Below, one piece after another: positions 10,241-63,616 of a stretch of DNA of 64,000 nt (its first letter is position 1; each line of letters opens with the position of its first letter). The stretch is taken from positions 1 through 64,000 of the forward strand of contig JANXYM010000087.1 of NCBI GenBank assembly GCA_025350045.1, read 5' to 3'. The notes below the pieces were generated by a model, which was given only the letters and a program-made list of their open reading frames with translations, was not told the DNA's origin and ran no database searches. Source of the DNA: Methanomicrobiales archaeon. Its GTDB lineage: Archaea; Halobacteriota; Methanomicrobia; Methanomicrobiales; Methanospirillaceae. Position numbers and translations under genes: made by a program.

Positions 10241-10431
10241 GAATAGTGCTTTAAATCTGTACATATTTCTGATTTGTGCTCGGGAATCGTGCAGATGCAA
10301 ACCTGCCAGCCCCTGCAGTGTTTTTCCGTATTGCGCAGTCCCGGCAGGAAAAAATGCACAAGATTGCAGGAAAGAACAGTTAAATTAAAAAGGACACCCG
10401 GATTAACGTTATGTATCAGGAGTAACAGGGA

Positions 10432-11040
10432 ATGTTCTGTCCTAAATGTGGAAAAGAGACCGATGCATCGGGAAAATTCTGCCAGTGGTGCGGCTCAGAT
10501 ATCGCATCCCTTCCGGCAAAGCCCGTCATCGTTCCCGAAGAGAATGAAGGGCCCGAAGTCGGGGTGTATGCAGGTCTCGGGCGGAGGTTTATTGCGTTCA
10601 TTGTCGATGCAATCCTCATCCTCCTTATTGGAATTGTTACGATCACGTTCTTCTCCATGACAAACGGGATAAAATATGCCTATTATCTCTCGGTCCAGAG
10701 AGCGCCAATTGCTGATCTCACCGAGGCAGGCACTGCGGATGCGGCACTCGGCCCCATTGTTGCGGCACTCGGGATGCTCATCATCGTGATCCCCTGGCTG
10801 TACTTTGCCGGGTTCGAGTCGTCCCGCAGCCAGGCAACACCCGGCAAGGTGCTCATGCGCATCATGGTGACCGATATGGAAGGCAACAAACCCACGTTCG
10901 CCCGGGTCACGCTCCGTCACTTCGGGAAATTTATCTCGGCACTGATCATCTTTATCGGGTTTTTGATGATCGGGCTCACCAAGAAGCGGCAGGGGCTCCA
11001 CGACAAGATCGGCAGTTGCCTTGTGCTCCTTGAGGACTAA
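10432..11040 (+). CDS. Zinc-ribbon RDD-family membrane protein
   Basis: A 202-residue protein. Residues 1-23 form a short zinc ribbon (CPKCGKETDASGKFCQWCG). An RDD domain follows: GLGRRFIAFIVDAILILLIG (about 44-63) with its Arg and Asp residues, a second membrane segment (about 105-125), SQATPGKVLMRIMV, and a third segment ending in KKRQGLHDKIG. RDD proteins have two to four spans; some have been linked to ion transport or stress, but most are uncharacterised. A T-run (11063-11068) lies 22 bases past the stop. Confidence 0.85.
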   Translation: MFCPKCGKETDASGKFCQWCGSDIASLPAKPVIVPEENEGPEVGVYAGLGRRFIAFIVDAILILLIGIVTITFFSMTNGIKYAYYLSVQRAPIADLTEAGTADAALGPIVAALGMLIIVIPWLYFAGFESSRSQATPGKVLMRIMVTDMEGNKPTFARVTLRHFGKFISALIIFIGFLMIGLTKKRQGLHDKIGSCLVLLED

Positions 11041-11137
11041 CAATCCCTGTCAGTATCCAATCTTTTTTCCCCGGATAAAACGGTTTTAATGGCTTTTTTT
11101 AAGGCTGGGTCTGGTATCAGACCATCAGAAAAAAAAG

Positions 11138-11392
11138 TTATTTGTACCGGAACTTCAGGCCGAGCAGCACGAGAATCAGGACAAAGGTGATCACGTTTGC
11201 CACGATGATGGGCAGGGACTCTGTCCAGATACCGTAGCACGTCCAGAGAAGGATCCCTGCTGCAAAGAGAATGAGCATGGCAAGCGAGAGATCCCGGGTC
11301 TCCTTAAGGTTCCATGCCCGGACCACCTGGGGAATGAACGAGATCGTGGTGAGGGCGCCGGCGATATAGCCAACGAGAACTATGGTATCCAT
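11138..11392 (-). CDS. SemiSWEET-type sugar transporter
   Basis: An 84-residue three-helix protein, the usual SemiSWEET (MtN3/PQ-loop) size. Helix 1 carries the diagnostic TTISFIPQVVRAW with the PQ motif, followed by the loop KETRDLSLAMLILF. Helices 2 and 3 follow (WTCYGIWTESLPIIVANVIT). Bacterial SemiSWEETs form dimers that move sugars down a gradient; the archaeal substrate is not known. It has no operon partner: the upstream enzyme gene lies about 100 bp away on the same strand. Confidence 0.85.
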   Translation of the reverse strand: MDTIVLVGYIAGALTTISFIPQVVRAWNLKETRDLSLAMLILFAAGILLWTCYGIWTESLPIIVANVITFVLILVLLGLKFRYK

Positions 11393-11490
11393 GAATTATG
11401 CTCCTTAAGTGTATTTTTCATGCGACCATTTATACCGGTCGCGTTTTCTTATCACAACAACAGGTGCAGAAACCAGGAGAGCTGGACGTA

Positions 11491-11898
11491 TCAGACCGGC
11501 ACCGGCTCGGGTGAGAACTGATCAGCTGCGATCAACCAATTCCGCCCCTCTTTTACTAAGCAGAGCATATCCCTGCCCCGCATGGTCAGCTTCTGCCCAC
11601 CCATTGCAAAGGTGATGGAGAAGAGGTACGTGACTACCGCACATTTTCCTCCCGCATAGATCTGCACGATGTGATCGGTCTCCTGCCAGTCGTGGATGAC
11701 TGCCGCTTCACAAAATGCCCGCCAGCCGGCAACATAGGCATCCTGCCCCACGAGGCGCCCGGGAGTTGTCGGGACAATCGCCACGGCATCGGGATGGATA
11801 TACTGCCGGAAAGCCGGTTCGTCCCAGGACACTGTCCAGCACTGGTTCATCTTCCGTATGGTCGTTTCGATCTGTTGAATTTCCGTACTCAGATACAT
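11491..11898 (-). CDS. NTF2-like (SnoaL/DUF4440-type) protein
   Basis: A 135-residue protein from ATG 11898; the frame continues upstream but nothing there looks like this family. It has the alpha-plus-beta barrel pattern of the NTF2 superfamily: a first helix (TEIQQIETTIRKMNQCW), FRQYIHPDAVAIVP with the usual His-Pro-Asp, then VAGWRAFCEA, VVTYLFSITFAMGG and LVKEGRNWLIAADQFSPEP. Such proteins can be small isomerases, dehydratases or ligand-binding domains. No neighbour indicates the substrate. Confidence 0.75.
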   Translation of the reverse strand: MYLSTEIQQIETTIRKMNQCWTVSWDEPAFRQYIHPDAVAIVPTTPGRLVGQDAYVAGWRAFCEAAVIHDWQETDHIVQIYAGGKCAVVTYLFSITFAMGGQKLTMRGRDMLCLVKEGRNWLIAADQFSPEPVPV

Positions 11899-12131
11899 GG
11901 GCTCATCTCTATTACATAAGGGAGAACAGAAGGGTAAAAAGGTGATCGGGCACGCGATGCGAAAGTGTGGTGGGAACAAAAGAAGCCCTCCCTCACGGGG
12001 TGGGCCGGGTAAGACTGAGCCGGTTACCCAGCCATTCGCGCCGGTCGAACCGTGCAGCAGCATCGGCGATCGCATGATTGGGACTCCCTGTGTGGGGATG
12101 AGCCAGGATGATGGAGATCCACATGGTTCCC

Positions 12132-57091: not shown

Positions 57092-57565
57092 TCAGGCTAA
57101 ATCTGTTTTAATCTGGCATTTTATCCTTTGAAGGGATATACCCGCAGGAACCGGTGCTATTTCCACACCCTGTCTGGTACCTCTGAGGGTTATACCAGCC
57201 AACTCATCGCTTGAACATACGAGGTGCTGCTCAGGGTGTGTACCCCGCTGAATCGAACAATTGGTAGAGATCTCCGGTGCAACAGATACCACGTGAGAGA
57301 GCCGTTTTGATCCCGGGTGGTCTTTTTCGAGTACGAGAAGTGGCATATGATATGCTCTTACGAGCTCGATGAGCATCATGGCCGGTTCAACCGCCCCACC
57401 TCCGGGTGCTGAGACTACTACGAGAGACCCGGGTTCGACTCCCTGGACATATTCATCAGATGAGGTTTCTATACACAGCGCAAACCGGGTCAGGGTCTTT
57501 GCAACAAGTAAAAAAGAGTGTGTTTCTGAAATGAGCAGTAGCTCATCATCCAGAGGAAAAATCAT
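57092..57565 (-). CDS. Conserved methanogen protein paired with a zinc ribbon
   Basis: A 157-residue cytosolic protein. The N-terminal part is beta-rich (MIFPLDDELLLISETHSFLL), with SLVVVSAPGGGAVEPAMMLI in the middle, a Gly-rich turn that could bind a phosphate, then VRAYHMPLLVLEKDHPGSKR and SNCSIQRGTH-like segments toward the end. I do not recognise the family. It overlaps the upstream zinc-ribbon gene by ATGA (57562-57565), so the two are translated together, and lies between the pilus-like gene cluster and the ATP synthase operon. Confidence 0.6.
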   Translation of the reverse strand: MIFPLDDELLLISETHSFLLVAKTLTRFALCIETSSDEYVQGVEPGSLVVVSAPGGGAVEPAMMLIELVRAYHMPLLVLEKDHPGSKRLSHVVSVAPEISTNCSIQRGTHPEQHLVCSSDELAGITLRGTRQGVEIAPVPAGISLQRIKCQIKTDLA

Positions 57566-57798: not shown

Positions 57799-59742
57799 TC
57801 AAACGGGACTGATAGTGAGCACGAAGTTGAAGGCGACCAGCGCGATTATGAGAAGGACACAGGAATGTTTTACTCCTGCCGAAATCGATGATTCACCCAT
57901 CTGCCCGGCAATCATCCCTGAGAAGAGAGCTTGCACAAGACATGCGTGATACAGGAGGCGGTTGAAAGTCTGAATGGGTATCGAACCTATACCAGATAAT
58001 GCCCCGGACGTTGGTAATCCGGTGGTTGTGATTTTTGCAAGCACCGGGAGGAACTGGGTAGTTAGTACCCCTACGACAAAGAGGAAGACAAAGAACGAGA
58101 GGTACACAATCGCGGTATAGATGAACATCTCTGCCAGACGTTCTCTTTTGAGAACTTCGGTCATCTTTGCATCACTGGATGCGATTGAGAGCACCGCGCC
58201 AATCTGACCGCTCATCTCACTCGCTTTGGTGATGAGGGTCACCGTCCGTGCAATGGAGGGGGTACTGACCCGTTCTTCGAACCGCATGAGGGCTTCAGTA
58301 AAATTTGCACCCCATTCCATATCGCGTTTGATTCTCCGTATTTCATAACTCAGGAGCCCGAGGTTGGTGTTCACCATGATAGCAATTGCCTGGGCGATCG
58401 TTAATCCCACCTGGTTGATGCCTGCCATACGTTCAAGAAAGTCAGGTATAAGCGTCTGGATTCCAAGCACTTTCCGGGACCAGATCTCGTAAAACACTGC
58501 ATAGGGAATGAGTATGATGAGCACGGCAATAACGATGTGATCATCAAGTACATTGATGAAGGTCTCCATGTTGGAATAATGAGGTATCTTCACCAGAATT
58601 ATTACAATATAAAGAATTGCGACAGGTACCGTCACATAGAGCGTCTGATTTACATTACTGACAAAACTCTCAAGCGGGTGCCGGATGAAATTGACGAGAG
58701 ATCTGAGCTGGTCATATTTCTTCAGCTGTTCATACAGGGGTTCCTCATCGTTTTTTTTATAAATGATTACGTCTGCATAGGTATGCAGCCACTTTGTCCT
58801 GACGTACCGGGAAGTCTTTTCGGCTTTTATCGAGATGAGATCGATCATAAGAATGAATACGAGTGAACCTATCGGGATGACCGCATAGGTTACCATCGCC
58901 AGCTGGATAACCGCATTGCCACCCATCATCCCCATCACGACCATAATGATGATCAAAAAGAGCGGGCCTGCGACAAACAGAGTTACATAGGACTCTGCAA
59001 CAAGAGAGAGCACCGTGAGAAACTGCCTCTGTTCAAACCGTGCTTCTTCCTGATACAACCTGACCCGCGTGGAGAGAAATTCCGCCATATCCCCGCCACT
59101 CTCAATGACCGAGAGGAGATCTTCTAAAAAATCCTTGAGTTTTTCGGAGGGCGTTGTTTCGGAAAGGTGCCGTATTGCAGTTACTACATCGTACCCGAAA
59201 AAATCTGCGTCCCGGACAATCTGGCGGAACTCCAGCGCAACTTCGCCATAAATGTTTGCACGATCAGAAAGGGATCGGAAGATCACCATAAGTTGAGCTC
59301 CTCCGCGCCTCATGGCGTACATATAAGCCACGGCATTGTGCAGAGTCATGTTGATCTTGATCGAGCGGTTATTCTTCTCGATACCCGGTAAACGCAACAT
59401 GAGGGAATAACCAATAAACGTGCCAATAATAAACGAGGCTATAATCGCCAGAACCTGCATATATTCCGCCGGGTTGATGGCATTGAAAAAGACCGGCAAC
59501 TGCAAGTTAAAAACATTATAGATACCGGTTCTCCCGGAGTATACCTGCAGGCTCAGAAAAGCACTTACAAAATACCCAATTATTGCAAAAAGAATGCCCG
59601 TCAGAAGCGCGATTTTAATGGATCTCCAGAGATACTGCTCAAGTGTCATCCCCGAGCGTGCAGATATCATGTCGGAATGCAGGCTGTGATACCGGAGTGG
59701 ATCGCGCTGGATCCATTTCCAGAGAGAATTCCTGAATATCAT
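57799..59742 (-). CDS. Type IV pilus/archaellum-like membrane platform protein (FlaJ/GspF/TadC family)
   Basis: A 647-residue protein with two T2SSF domains. The first half has spans near 35-65 and 100-125, the motif VAYMYAMRRGGAQLMVIFRS, and LSVIESGGDMAEFLSTR (ESGGD-type) around residue 215. The second half (from about 350) has more spans and a repeat of the pattern, including MAGINQVGLTIAQAIAIMVN and RTVTLITKASEMSGQIGAVL. This is the usual platform on which a FlaI-type ATPase assembles pilins. It is longer than archaellum FlaJ, closer to archaeal adhesive-pilus platforms. It overlaps the ATPase gene by ATGA. No pilin or prepilin peptidase gene is in the window. Confidence 0.88.
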   Translation of the reverse strand: MIFRNSLWKWIQRDPLRYHSLHSDMISARSGMTLEQYLWRSIKIALLTGILFAIIGYFVSAFLSLQVYSGRTGIYNVFNLQLPVFFNAINPAEYMQVLAIIASFIIGTFIGYSLMLRLPGIEKNNRSIKINMTLHNAVAYMYAMRRGGAQLMVIFRSLSDRANIYGEVALEFRQIVRDADFFGYDVVTAIRHLSETTPSEKLKDFLEDLLSVIESGGDMAEFLSTRVRLYQEEARFEQRQFLTVLSLVAESYVTLFVAGPLFLIIIMVVMGMMGGNAVIQLAMVTYAVIPIGSLVFILMIDLISIKAEKTSRYVRTKWLHTYADVIIYKKNDEEPLYEQLKKYDQLRSLVNFIRHPLESFVSNVNQTLYVTVPVAILYIVIILVKIPHYSNMETFINVLDDHIVIAVLIILIPYAVFYEIWSRKVLGIQTLIPDFLERMAGINQVGLTIAQAIAIMVNTNLGLLSYEIRRIKRDMEWGANFTEALMRFEERVSTPSIARTVTLITKASEMSGQIGAVLSIASSDAKMTEVLKRERLAEMFIYTAIVYLSFFVFLFVVGVLTTQFLPVLAKITTTGLPTSGALSGIGSIPIQTFNRLLYHACLVQALFSGMIAGQMGESSISAGVKHSCVLLIIALVAFNFVLTISPV

Positions 59743-61481
59743 CGGATTACCTTGCGGAGATCGGTAATATGGGCCAGCACTTCTTTGGCATCGATGTAGT
59801 ACGCATGGAAGAGGGTCGCAACCGAGATATAATCTTTAATTCCCTGCTTTCTCATCTCTTCTAAGAGATTTTTCCGTATGGCAATTTCAGCCTCAAGCTG
59901 TTCACGGGTCCATCCCCGTTTTTCTGCAATATCAGAATAGATCTGGGATCTCCCGGTAAAACTGAACTTGTCCTTAACGGGATCATATACGAAAACATTG
60001 TTGACCCGCAGGTTTCCGGTTGATGGATCAATACCGGCAATCTCGACAACTTCCTGAACCCGGCGGACGCGTTCTGTTCCGTGATAGATAAGACCCTGCA
60101 CGCTGACGATGTTAAGGGCCTGCACCATGTTTCTGGGAACATTCAATGGCTCGCTTTCGAGACGGTGGATTGCTGCATCTACACTCCCTGCGTGCATGGT
60201 GGAGAAGGTGGTATGCCCGGTATTCATTGCCTGGAAAAGGGTCTGGGCTTCAGCACCTCGCACTTCCCCAACAAGGATGAATTCGGGACGTTGTCGCATC
60301 GCAGCCCGCAACAGGTCAAACATGTTGATGGCATTGCCACCTTCCGAAAGGGCTTCCCGGGTGACACTCGCGATCCAGTTGTCATGGTACAGGGTGATCT
60401 CACGGGTATCTTCAATACTCACAATTTTAGCAACCGGAGGAATGAACAGGGAGACCGCATTCAGAGAAGTCGTCTTTCCGGAAGCAGTCCCTCCGATAAA
60501 CAAGAGGCTTTTGTTATTCTCAATAGCGAGCCAGAAATAAGCAAGCGATTCCGCATTGAAAGTACCGATCTCCATGAGTTCAATGGGAGAGAACGGCTCT
60601 TCCCGGAATTTCCGTATGGTAAACGAAGTCCCCCGGGTTGTCACTTCAGTACCAAGAGTGAGCTGGAGCCGGGAGCCCTCCGGGAGCGTCGCATCGATCA
60701 TCGGAGAGCCCGTAGAGATGTGCTTTCCCGAACGCTGGGCGAGCGTGATTGCCAGCGAGTTCAGAACATCGGATTCAAAGGCAATATTTGTTTTGATGTT
60801 CCGGTAGTGCCGGTGATAGAGGAAGAGCGGGACTTTATTGCCATCGCAGGAGATATCCTCCAGATTAGGATCCTTCATCAGGGGGTCAATACGCGACCAG
60901 CCGATAAAATTCCTGATCAGGAAATACTGAAGCTTGTAGAGAGTGGATCGTTCAAGCGTAAGGCCATAATTGTCAATGAGACCGTGCATCTTTTCAAGGA
61001 GGATGCGCCTGCGATCCTTTTTGATCTCATCGGCTGTCAGGATCAGTACATCCCGCAGATCCTCATAAAGACGCTCCAGCAGTTCATATTCAAAGTCGGA
61101 CAGGGAGGGTTCAAACAGGAGATATTCCGGCTGATTGGTCTTCTTATTCAGGGCAATAATGACGAGAGATCGCCCGTTTTCTATCCAGTACTGATCGATC
61201 TGTTCATAGGAGTCGTCCACATTTACTTCAACAAGCGTTCCGTCCCGTTCAAAAACGTATTCATCTATGGCTGATTTCGCAACCCCTTTGAGCAGGTGAA
61301 AATAGTGGCGGTAGCTTGCATCGGGTTTTTTGGATATCGTTTTGGATTCCGGTGCGGGAGTTTTCTCTGTATTCCCACCGGCTAAGGTTTTTTCTGGTTC
61401 AGCAGGTGGTTCAGCAGGTCCCTGGGCCCCTTTTTCCGCCTGATCTTTTTTAAGCGAATTTAAGAATTCAGAAATCTGCAT
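59739..61481 (-). CDS. Type II/IV secretion ATPase (FlaI/GspE/TadA family)
   Basis: A 580-residue hexameric ATPase that drives pilus or secretion-apparatus assembly. ATG 61481 is chosen (TTG at 61490 is the only earlier start). Residues 15-55 are a Pro/Glu/Lys-rich flexible lead. Then come the N-terminal domain (about 60-290), the Walker A GGTASGKTTSL (330-340), the Asp box VSIEDTREITL, Walker B EFILVGEVRGAEAQTLFQAM and the His box TGHTTFSTMHAGS. All catalytic motifs are present. It overlaps the platform gene and is divergent from the KaiC pair. Confidence 0.92.
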   Translation of the reverse strand: MQISEFLNSLKKDQAEKGAQGPAEPPAEPEKTLAGGNTEKTPAPESKTISKKPDASYRHYFHLLKGVAKSAIDEYVFERDGTLVEVNVDDSYEQIDQYWIENGRSLVIIALNKKTNQPEYLLFEPSLSDFEYELLERLYEDLRDVLILTADEIKKDRRRILLEKMHGLIDNYGLTLERSTLYKLQYFLIRNFIGWSRIDPLMKDPNLEDISCDGNKVPLFLYHRHYRNIKTNIAFESDVLNSLAITLAQRSGKHISTGSPMIDATLPEGSRLQLTLGTEVTTRGTSFTIRKFREEPFSPIELMEIGTFNAESLAYFWLAIENNKSLLFIGGTASGKTTSLNAVSLFIPPVAKIVSIEDTREITLYHDNWIASVTREALSEGGNAINMFDLLRAAMRQRPEFILVGEVRGAEAQTLFQAMNTGHTTFSTMHAGSVDAAIHRLESEPLNVPRNMVQALNIVSVQGLIYHGTERVRRVQEVVEIAGIDPSTGNLRVNNVFVYDPVKDKFSFTGRSQIYSDIAEKRGWTREQLEAEIAIRKNLLEEMRKQGIKDYISVATLFHAYYIDAKEVLAHITDLRKVIR

Positions 61482-61696
61482 ACTGCACAAGCTCCCTATC
61501 CGTAAAACTACTGTTGTTCCCGATGTATAATTCGGGAGATCATTCTATATAATGTATGTGTCATTACGGGAAATTGGCGGATATTTAGTCGTTTTACCTG
61601 CATTTCTGATGATCATGCTTTAGCGATCAGATATATTTATAACACTCCCCATGAGAGTTTCTGTGAAGAATAGTTCTCTATTAGTGAGGGGGGTTT
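61482..61696. promoter_or_regulatory. Divergent promoter between the pilus-like genes and the KaiC pair
   Basis: For the leftward ATPase gene, TCTATATAAT (61544-61553) is the TATA-like box, with a small inverted repeat CCCGA-TGTATAAT-TCGGG (61519-61536) just downstream. For the rightward KaiC genes, ATATATTTATAA (61631-61642) is the TATA box and GTGAGGGGGG before ATG 61697 is the ribosome site. The shared 215-bp region makes coordinated control likely. Confidence 0.6.
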
Positions 61697-62524
61697 ATGC
61701 AGGAATTCGACAGTAAAAAAATGCCTACCGGGATCTCATCACTCGACCCGATTCTTGATGGGGGAGTTCCACCGGGTTCTGTCATCCTTTTTCTTGGGGA
61801 TCTCGGGGCGGGTAGTAACGAGTTTGTGTACAGTTCTATGATAAACCTCTTGGATGCCCAAAAAAAAGGTGAATTAAAAGACAAAACCACTCCAAAAGAG
61901 CTCCGGTATATCACCTTCACTCGGCTCAAAGATGACGTAAGAAAGGAGATCGTCAATTCACTGCACGTTGACAATGTAAGCCAGCTCGTGGATTCAATCC
62001 AGTTCGATGACCTTTCCGAACTCTATTTTGACAGTAGCGTTGTTCCCGATGAGTGGTACAGCCACAGCGATCTCCTTACAAGAATGCAAAAGCGGTCTGG
62101 TCATGAAAATGTGCTTGTCCAGCTCTCAAACGTGATCAATACAGCACAACCGCACAGTCTTATCGTCATGGATTCTATCACCGATATCGCGACACAATCC
62201 AATACTCCCAACAGCTGGTCAAACCTTACCGGTTTTTTACGGGGTTTACAGCGGGTGTCAAAACAACGGGACCTGAGCTGTTACCTGCTGCTCACCCAGG
62301 GTATTCTCAGTTCAGCCCAGGAGAAAGAGCTCTCCGATATTGCAGATGCGGTGATTCTTTTTAAATGGGAGGAGAGTACGGGTTCCCGCAGGCAGCGGGT
62401 AATGTACTTTGAAAAATTCAGGGGAGTTATGCCACATCTCGAGGAGCGCGATCTCGTGAAATTTGCTGTCCGAATATCGACTACCAGTGGTTTTGAAGTG
62501 AGCAATATCCGGGTGGTCATATGA
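61697..62524 (+). CDS. KaiC/RecA-like protein with degenerate Walker A
   Basis: A 275-residue RecA-superfamily domain of the KaiC/GvpD/RAD55 group. It starts TGISSLDPILDGGVPPGSVI, the KaiC-type lead-in. The Walker A motif should be GxxGxGKT but reads GDLGAGSNE (residues 34-42), with Ser-Asn where the essential Lys-Thr should be. Walker B is kept (SLIVMDSITDIA). So it probably binds nucleotide weakly or not at all. It overlaps the second KaiC-like gene by ATGA. Both lie divergent from a FlaI/FlaJ-like pair, and FlaH, the regulator of archaellum FlaI, is itself a KaiC-like protein. Confidence 0.82.
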   Translation: MQEFDSKKMPTGISSLDPILDGGVPPGSVILFLGDLGAGSNEFVYSSMINLLDAQKKGELKDKTTPKELRYITFTRLKDDVRKEIVNSLHVDNVSQLVDSIQFDDLSELYFDSSVVPDEWYSHSDLLTRMQKRSGHENVLVQLSNVINTAQPHSLIVMDSITDIATQSNTPNSWSNLTGFLRGLQRVSKQRDLSCYLLLTQGILSSAQEKELSDIADAVILFKWEESTGSRRQRVMYFEKFRGVMPHLEERDLVKFAVRISTTSGFEVSNIRVVI

Positions 62525-63219
62525 GTCCCGGGCGGGTTAAGATGGGTATCCTGGGTCTTGATGATATGCTGGGCGGGGGTCTTATTCCGGGCAGCATCTG
62601 TGCGATTATCGGTACGTATGGTACCGGCAAGACAACATTTTCTCTTGATTTCGTATGGGACGGGCTGACAAAAGGAGAGCGGGTTATCTACATCAGTCTT
62701 GAGGAACGCGAGGAGAGGATTCTTTCTTACATGACGCAGAAGGGATGGGATGTAATGCCTTTTTTGAACAAATCGTTCTATGTTATCAAACTCGATCCCA
62801 CGGATTTCAATGTTGCCAACAACCGTATCAAAAACGAACTGCCAAAACTCATCGAAGAAGTGAAGGCCAGCAGGGTGGTTATCGATCCGATCTCTCTGTT
62901 TGAAGACCTGTTCGATAACGATTCTGAACGACGGCAGGAGATGTACCGGTTTATCGAAGGCCTCCGCGACAGGAACTGCACGATCATGATGACCTCAGAG
63001 ACACACAGGGACAACATTTTTTCCAGTCGTCATGGGCTGATCGAGTACCTGGCTGACACGGTGATCCTGCTCCGGTATGTCCGTCCCTCTGATCTGACCG
63101 ATGTCCATCTGGCACTCGAAGTGGTCAAGATGCGCATGTCTGCCCATTCACGTGAGATCAAGCCGTACGAGATTGAGCAGGAACAGGTCATGGTTTACTC
63201 AGAAGCAAATGTGTTCTGA
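62521..63219 (+). CDS. KaiC/RecA-like ATPase with intact Walker A
   Basis: A 232-residue KaiC-family ATPase. The lead-in MGILGLDDMLGGGLIPGSIC runs straight into a complete Walker A, GTYGTGKTTF (31-40). VIYISLEEREERILSYM follows, with the catalytic Glu pair seen in KaiC-type proteins. Walker B is RVVIDPISLFED, and TIMMTSETHRD and LADTVILLRYVRPSD complete the fold. It overlaps the first gene by ATGA, so a hetero-oligomer of one active and one inactive subunit is plausible. Length fits single-domain KaiC proteins. Confidence 0.88.
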   Translation: MSPGRVKMGILGLDDMLGGGLIPGSICAIIGTYGTGKTTFSLDFVWDGLTKGERVIYISLEEREERILSYMTQKGWDVMPFLNKSFYVIKLDPTDFNVANNRIKNELPKLIEEVKASRVVIDPISLFEDLFDNDSERRQEMYRFIEGLRDRNCTIMMTSETHRDNIFSSRHGLIEYLADTVILLRYVRPSDLTDVHLALEVVKMRMSAHSREIKPYEIEQEQVMVYSEANVF

Positions 63220-63352: not shown

Positions 63353-63616
63353 TTAAAGGGTTATTCCCAGAATATCCAGCAATACAAGAATGCAGACACC
63401 CGGTAACCCACCAATCGCGGAGATCAGAACGGTTGCAAGATCATACCCGAGATCTGGTTTTCCCATCCATTGCATGACATGCAGGAAATTCAGGATAAAC
63501 AGAAGGATGATCCCCAGGATGGCATTAACAATAAGCACCGTGAACTTTTTTACCAGATAGTAGACGATCGCAACAATTGCTACTACGAGAAGAATTGCAA
63601 TGAGTACTGCGCTCAT
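63353..63616 (-). CDS. BofA-family small membrane protein
   Basis: An 87-residue protein with two clear membrane spans (about 4-22 and 27-48) and a hydrophobic C-terminal end. KKFTVLIVNAILGIILLFIL and ATVLISAIGGLPGVCILVLL match the BofA family, which in Bacillus inhibits an intramembrane protease during sporulation. Archaea do not sporulate, so the methanogen role must differ. It reads leftward, 19 bases downstream of the TldD/PmbA-type gene. Confidence 0.78.
   Translation of the reverse strand: MSAVLIAILLVVAIVAIVYYLVKKFTVLIVNAILGIILLFILNFLHVMQWMGKPDLGYDLATVLISAIGGLPGVCILVLLDILGITL

Follow-up and report, generated by a model that had tools for sequence, protein, structure and literature searches.

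We asked what a pair of KaiC-like proteins, only one of which appears able to use ATP, does beside the motor genes of an archaeal filament. The four genes concerned lie in a stretch of 64,000 nucleotides, here called the window, on contig 78 of a 2.53 Mb assembly with 121 contigs. The host is a methanogen whose named close relatives belong to Methanoregula. The genes are as follows:

57799–59742, minus strand: FlaJ/TadC-like platform protein, 647 aa, two T2SSF domains
59739–61481, minus strand: FlaI/PilB3-like assembly ATPase, 580 aa from the ATG at 61481, T2SSE domain
61697–62524, plus strand: Kai1, pseudo-KaiC, 275 aa, Walker A Lys and Thr and catalytic Glu pair missing
62521–63219, plus strand: Kai2, intact KaiC-family ATPase (KaiC_arch_3), 232 aa

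The open reading frame of flaI opens with a TTG at 61490, and relatives begin at the ATG at 61481. Genes flaJ and flaI overlap by 4 bp, as do kai1 and kai2 (ATGA), and the two operons diverge from a common region of 215 bp. The first-pass annotation had described this divergent layout with its KaiC overlap as well as the loss of the Walker A lysine in the first KaiC only, and both descriptions hold at these coordinates (G-D-L-G-A-G-S-N-E-F in Kai1 versus G-T-Y-G-T-G-K-T-T-F in Kai2).

The unit is flanked by genes for A-type ATPase subunits, orf157, BofA and TldD. The orf157 gene (57092–57565, minus strand) separates flaJ from the A-type ATPase operon. Its product is conserved in Methanomicrobiales only, contains invariant RGTHPEQ and HPGS motifs and gave a confident AF2 model (pLDDT 91.8); neither Pfam nor NCBIfam has a matching family, and the comparison with PDB folds gave nothing better than E 0.2. 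The archaeal BofA-family protein (63353–63616, minus strand; PF07441, 52.4 versus 26.1 bits) is encoded downstream of Kai2 in many relatives. The family owes its name to sporulation control in Bacillus.

The ATPase matches PF00437 (126.1, cut-off 24.9) and, barely over the threshold, the PilB3_C domain PF23989 (27.2, cut-off 27.0). The platform protein matches PF00482 in two stretches (95 bits), and the 4-bp overlap places this TadC/PilC platform directly beside the ATPase, a trait of PilB3-type pili. Both motor proteins also resemble archaellum models, as would be expected of a second archaellum or a direct derivative with Kai1 and Kai2 as its ArlH. All of these models, however, remain well under their cut-offs (FlaI 410.6 of 550, FlaJ 67 of 550, ArlH 58.1 of 215). 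Unlike in an archaellum, neither archaellins nor the ArlC–G genes (ArlCDE, ArlFG) are among the locus neighbors listed above, the ATPase carries PilB3_C, and a separate FlaH-like/FlaI locus of the host lies on contig 45. Model cut-offs and gene neighborhood rule out an archaellum identity of the locus, and we regard the whole explanation as contradicted and extremely improbable. Judged by its domains and neighbors, this is the motor of a type IV pilus of the PilB3 type (euryarchaeal clade 2) and not an archaellum; pilus assembly itself is a prediction.

The two KaiC-like proteins were compared with their aligned orthologs (51 sequences for Kai1, 32 for Kai2). In all 51 Kai1 sequences the Walker A lysine and the catalytic glutamate pair are missing; Kai1 of the window also lacks the Walker A threonine. 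A sequencing error or a recent decay of this motif was rejected, because the lysine is missing in every ortholog and a glutamate two residues further on is invariant. The Walker B aspartate (Asp159 in the window) is kept in 50 of 51 orthologs and the arginine of the finger in 45 of 51. This finger reads K240-F-R-G in the window, and the K-F-R-G segment near the C-terminus is the best-conserved stretch of the protein. Kai1 nevertheless belongs to the KaiC superfamily: PF06745 scores 38.7 versus 26.6, the single-chain AF2 model (mean pLDDT 81) has a RecA fold with KaiC and FlaH as nearest structures, and Foldseek matched it to both with E about 1e-11, including the FlaH entry 4yds. On these motifs Kai1 is an ancient pseudo-ATPase.

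Kai2 scores 348.7 against TIGR03880 (KaiC_arch_3; cut-off 249.45). All 32 aligned sequences have an intact Walker A, Walker B and K-x-R finger (K-M-R in the window), and the acidic pair is nearly always kept, with one or two positions of the Glu pair occupied by Asp, Gln or Ser. In genus g21, possibly Methanocorpusculum, Kai2 reads GTGRTT instead of GTGKTT (locus L120, 8485–9210; locus L121, 8898–9626), and the second KaiC seems to be decaying there as well. A profile comparison aligned Kai1 and Kai2 along the RecA core. Neither protein is a circadian KaiC: both are single-domain, and NF006799 yields 41.5 for Kai1 and 123.8 for Kai2 versus the required 408.

In KaiC, subunit n+1 reaches the ATP of subunit n with K224/R226 and K457/R459, which hold its phosphates (PMC2777353). 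Since Kai1 has lost its own site and kept the finger for a neighbor's site, the simplest reading is that it serves as a partner subunit of Kai2. A mixed ring of the two proteins is likely from this motif pattern, and the pairing of a pseudo-ATPase with an ATPase predicts that the active site is shared between subunits, its finger being contributed in trans.

The conservation of the unit was followed in a Kai1 scan of named genomes, which gave 35 Methanomicrobiales loci (L009–L043). Kai2 follows Kai1 in 35 of 35, and a divergent FlaI is present in 28, down to about 50% identity and mostly with the ATGA overlap of the two KaiC genes. In six of the seven remaining loci the contig ends at most about 1.6 kb upstream of Kai1; in L030 it ends after 2.1 kb without FlaI. 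The four genes are also linked in seven families outside the order (L104–L109, L111, L113, L115, L116, L119–L122, and L096 on the same strand). The co-occurrence in other genomes that the first-pass annotation had proposed to check is thus found, and because the arrangement recurs in 28 Methanomicrobiales contigs and seven outside families, it is not due to chance. Among 393 genomes of the phylum, Kai1 is present in 187 and Kai2 in 186, with both in 181, neither in 201 and discordance in 11.

The KaiC genes and the motor are also lost together. Kai1 and the cognate FlaI are both present in 65 of 83 Methanomicrobiales genomes and both missing in the other 18, where FlaI of Kai1-positive genomes matches the cognate profile with E ≤ 8.5e-194 and the best value in the 18 Kai1-negative genomes is 4.3e-183. 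Seventeen of these 18 keep another FlaI and one has none. The second-best FlaI of the host, on contig 49, reaches 594 bits and scores at about the level of the FlaI proteins in the Kai1-negative genomes, which therefore probably retain a motor of the contig-49 type and have lost the cognate one. As the 18 genomes are drawn from several genera, there were several losses, yet fewer than 18 independent events, and the joint loss may reflect only a few of them.

Exceptions to the linkage were found further away, in groups whose names (haloarchaea, Methanosarcinaceae-like) are labels inferred from size, GC and gene content. Family f8 (Methanosarcinaceae-like) has high-scoring FlaI and FlaJ and no KaiC neighbor in the loci examined; the KaiC pair as an obligate part of every such motor was rejected for this reason. 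GC-rich haloarchaea-like genomes contain Kai1, Kai2 and FlaI far apart from each other, and in family f9 the KaiC pair is found without an adjacent FlaI (L098, L103), with KaiC genes and FlaI present and unlinked. A separation of the KaiC pair from FlaI/FlaJ in most relatives, which the first-pass annotation would have counted against a functional connection, is therefore seen in haloarchaea and family f9, whereas among methanogens and the groups closest to them the genes remain linked and disappear jointly.

In haloarchaeal Kai1 the finger lysine is replaced by Gln or Glu and the arginine stays. This change would fit a loosened partnership between Kai1 and Kai2, with few events behind it. Haloarchaeal Kai2 (L128, L130, L131, L133) has an acidic, Gly-rich N-terminal extension of roughly 130–340 residues before the KaiC domain. 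A recurrent neighbor of haloarchaeal Kai1 (about 230–340 aa; L087–L091, L095, L102) combines a coiled-coil with a C-terminal zinc-ribbon-like motif and is possibly a new partner.

The unlinked genes in haloarchaea and family f9, together with the limited number of loss events, could mean that the KaiC pair has an unrelated housekeeping role and stands beside flaI only through the shared divergent promoter region; the A-type ATPase, BofA and TldD flanks are likewise conserved in Methanomicrobiales. Outside the order, however, the BofA and orf157 flanks are gone and the four genes still stand together. In L116 the first gene on the Kai1-Kai2 side encodes a PilA pilin, and the joint loss occurred in several genera that still have another FlaI. 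We consider a housekeeping role improbable.

As to the substrate, a regular-expression scan found no pilin in the window or in the intergenic gaps of close relatives. Pilin genes of the host are located on contigs 56 and 46 and its one prepilin peptidase (PF06847) on contig 49, so the earlier statement that no pilin or peptidase is nearby stands for the window, as far as the pilin scan goes, and does not extend to the rest of the genome. PilA-type pilins (PF07790) are encoded inside the locus of the relatives L104 and L116, and pilin-like genes in that of L107, L117, L120 and L121. In Haloferax, the pilins of PilB3-C3 are encoded in trans (PMC4858521, PMC6491452). Because of the PilB3_C domain on the ATPase, the pilins in relatives' loci and this precedent, the exported substrate, left as unknown in the first-pass annotation, is most likely a PilA-type pilin encoded elsewhere in the host genome. 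Other genes enter the locus as well: in L108 and L109 a MinD-family ATPase separates Kai1 from FlaI, in L110 such an ATPase is next to Kai1, and in L119 a PAS-PAS-DUF835 protein (10349–11917, minus strand), a possible sensor input, is encoded directly upstream of Kai1-Kai2.

The shared intergenic region contains three elements:

61519–61536, no strand: imperfect palindrome CCCGATGTATAATTCGGG, seen by eye in the intergenic alignment, close relatives only
61543–61554, minus strand: flaI-flaJ promoter, predicted TATA box CATTATATAGAA, near-invariant in 10 aligned intergenic regions
61632–61642, plus strand: kai1-kai2 promoter, predicted TATA box TATATTTATAA, highly conserved across the same 10 regions

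The palindrome, which was not picked up by a repeat finder, sits near the predicted transcription start of flaI and is a possible operator.

A 215-bp region with two conserved TATA boxes and a candidate operator would suit a KaiC pair that acts as a signaling node for pilus gene expression, or for a switch between attached and motile states, through other proteins and without touching FlaI. The divergent promoter would then keep a regulator and its target together. The Haloferax KaiC-like proteins CirA and CirD act on archaellum genes at the transcript level (PMC13286277), and the sensor-like protein of L119, the FlaI/FlaJ motors of family f8 without a KaiC pair and the scattered yet retained haloarchaeal genes point in the same direction. 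Pfam and NCBIfam matches, on the other hand, revealed no DNA-binding domain in Kai1 or Kai2, and ArlH, itself KaiC-like, works on an archaeal type IV filament motor through contact with the ATPase. A signaling node is a possibility to be taken seriously, at odds clearly short of even.

Based on these results we favor a PilB3-type pilus motor with a dedicated two-subunit KaiC regulator, a mixed ring that gates FlaI/FlaJ, and put its probability at roughly 55%. In this proposal Kai2 would bind and use ATP. Kai1, its own site being unusable, would lend its K-x-R finger to the ATP in a neighboring Kai2, and the two would most likely assemble as a mixed ring. The nucleotide or phosphorylation state of the ring could then permit or block pilus assembly by FlaI/FlaJ, with pilins supplied from elsewhere in the genome. 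That the ring touches FlaI, and in which direction it exerts control, we infer from the archaellum, where ArlI is stimulated by ArlH in its ATP-bound form and bound less tightly by phosphorylated ArlH (PMC8978795, PMC12024892). The ArlH-like, two-subunit switch of the first-pass annotation accordingly keeps its active/inactive pair and its linkage to the motor as observations, and docking on FlaI would follow by analogy.

Two known systems are close to this arrangement. Haloferax PilB3-PilC3 is likewise a FlaI/FlaJ pair with PilB3_C whose motor operon is free of pilins; its pilins are encoded in trans, those of the present system in trans or in relatives' loci. What our locus adds is a dedicated, divergent KaiC pair with one pseudo-ATPase. 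ArlH-ArlI resembles it in that a KaiC-like protein of RecA fold is encoded alongside a FlaI-type ATPase, but there is one such protein instead of two, and neither Kai1 nor Kai2 reaches the ArlH cut-off. One sentence in the accessible part of a 2016 paper states that the KaiC families arCOG01172 and arCOG01173 are possibly co-transcribed with VirB11/TadC in Methanomicrobia (PMC4858521). This is very likely the same association, although that part mentions no inactive partner, co-loss or mixed ring. Inactivated KaiC domains (iKaiC, DUF835, MEDS) without catalytic motifs are known from archaeal signaling (PMC5847659); they are mostly fused to REC or PAS, whereas Kai1 is a stand-alone protein beside an intact partner. 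A literature text search gave no further relevant paper on arCOG01172/arCOG01173, iKaiC or TIGR03880. The first-pass annotation's candidate for an undescribed system was thus noted in 2016 as far as KaiC families beside such operons are concerned; for the conserved pairing of an active with a pseudo-ATPase KaiC, and for its loss together with the motor, the accessible texts gave no earlier description.

Two peptides, VYITLE and YELTNE, are encoded by the qPCR primers for Haloferax cirB; they agree with haloarchaeal Kai2 in 6 of 6 positions at the Glu-pair strand and in 4 of 6 near the C-terminus, respectively. An ATP-NAD kinase gene adjoins both cirB and the haloarchaeal kai2 of L130. Given these peptides and the common neighbor, CirB is probably the Kai2 ortholog. 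CirB has been examined for light/dark expression (PMC3941300), and the accessible text of that study contains no pilus assay. With CirB as Kai2 ortholog the pilus hypothesis becomes testable in Haloferax, where a cirB deletion has already been reported.

According to the accessible part of a review, all other members of the type IV filament family assemble without an ArlH homolog (PMC12024892). That statement seems too strict in view of a KaiC pair whose presence and loss follow those of an ordinary pilus motor. Many archaea retain or lack all four genes as a set, and for this reason we regard the pair as a probable dedicated device for pilus control. It offers a simple, genetically tractable case of archaeal KaiC action on type IV motors. 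More tentative, and rather doubtful at present, is the idea that a ring of live and dead KaiC subunits, the dead one completing the ATP site of the live one, runs many of the type IV pili other than archaella throughout Halobacteriota. If true, this ring would act as a timer or latch of two genes on a pilus motor; the principle known from ArlH would then reach past the archaellum, and haloarchaeal CirB would gain a physical target.
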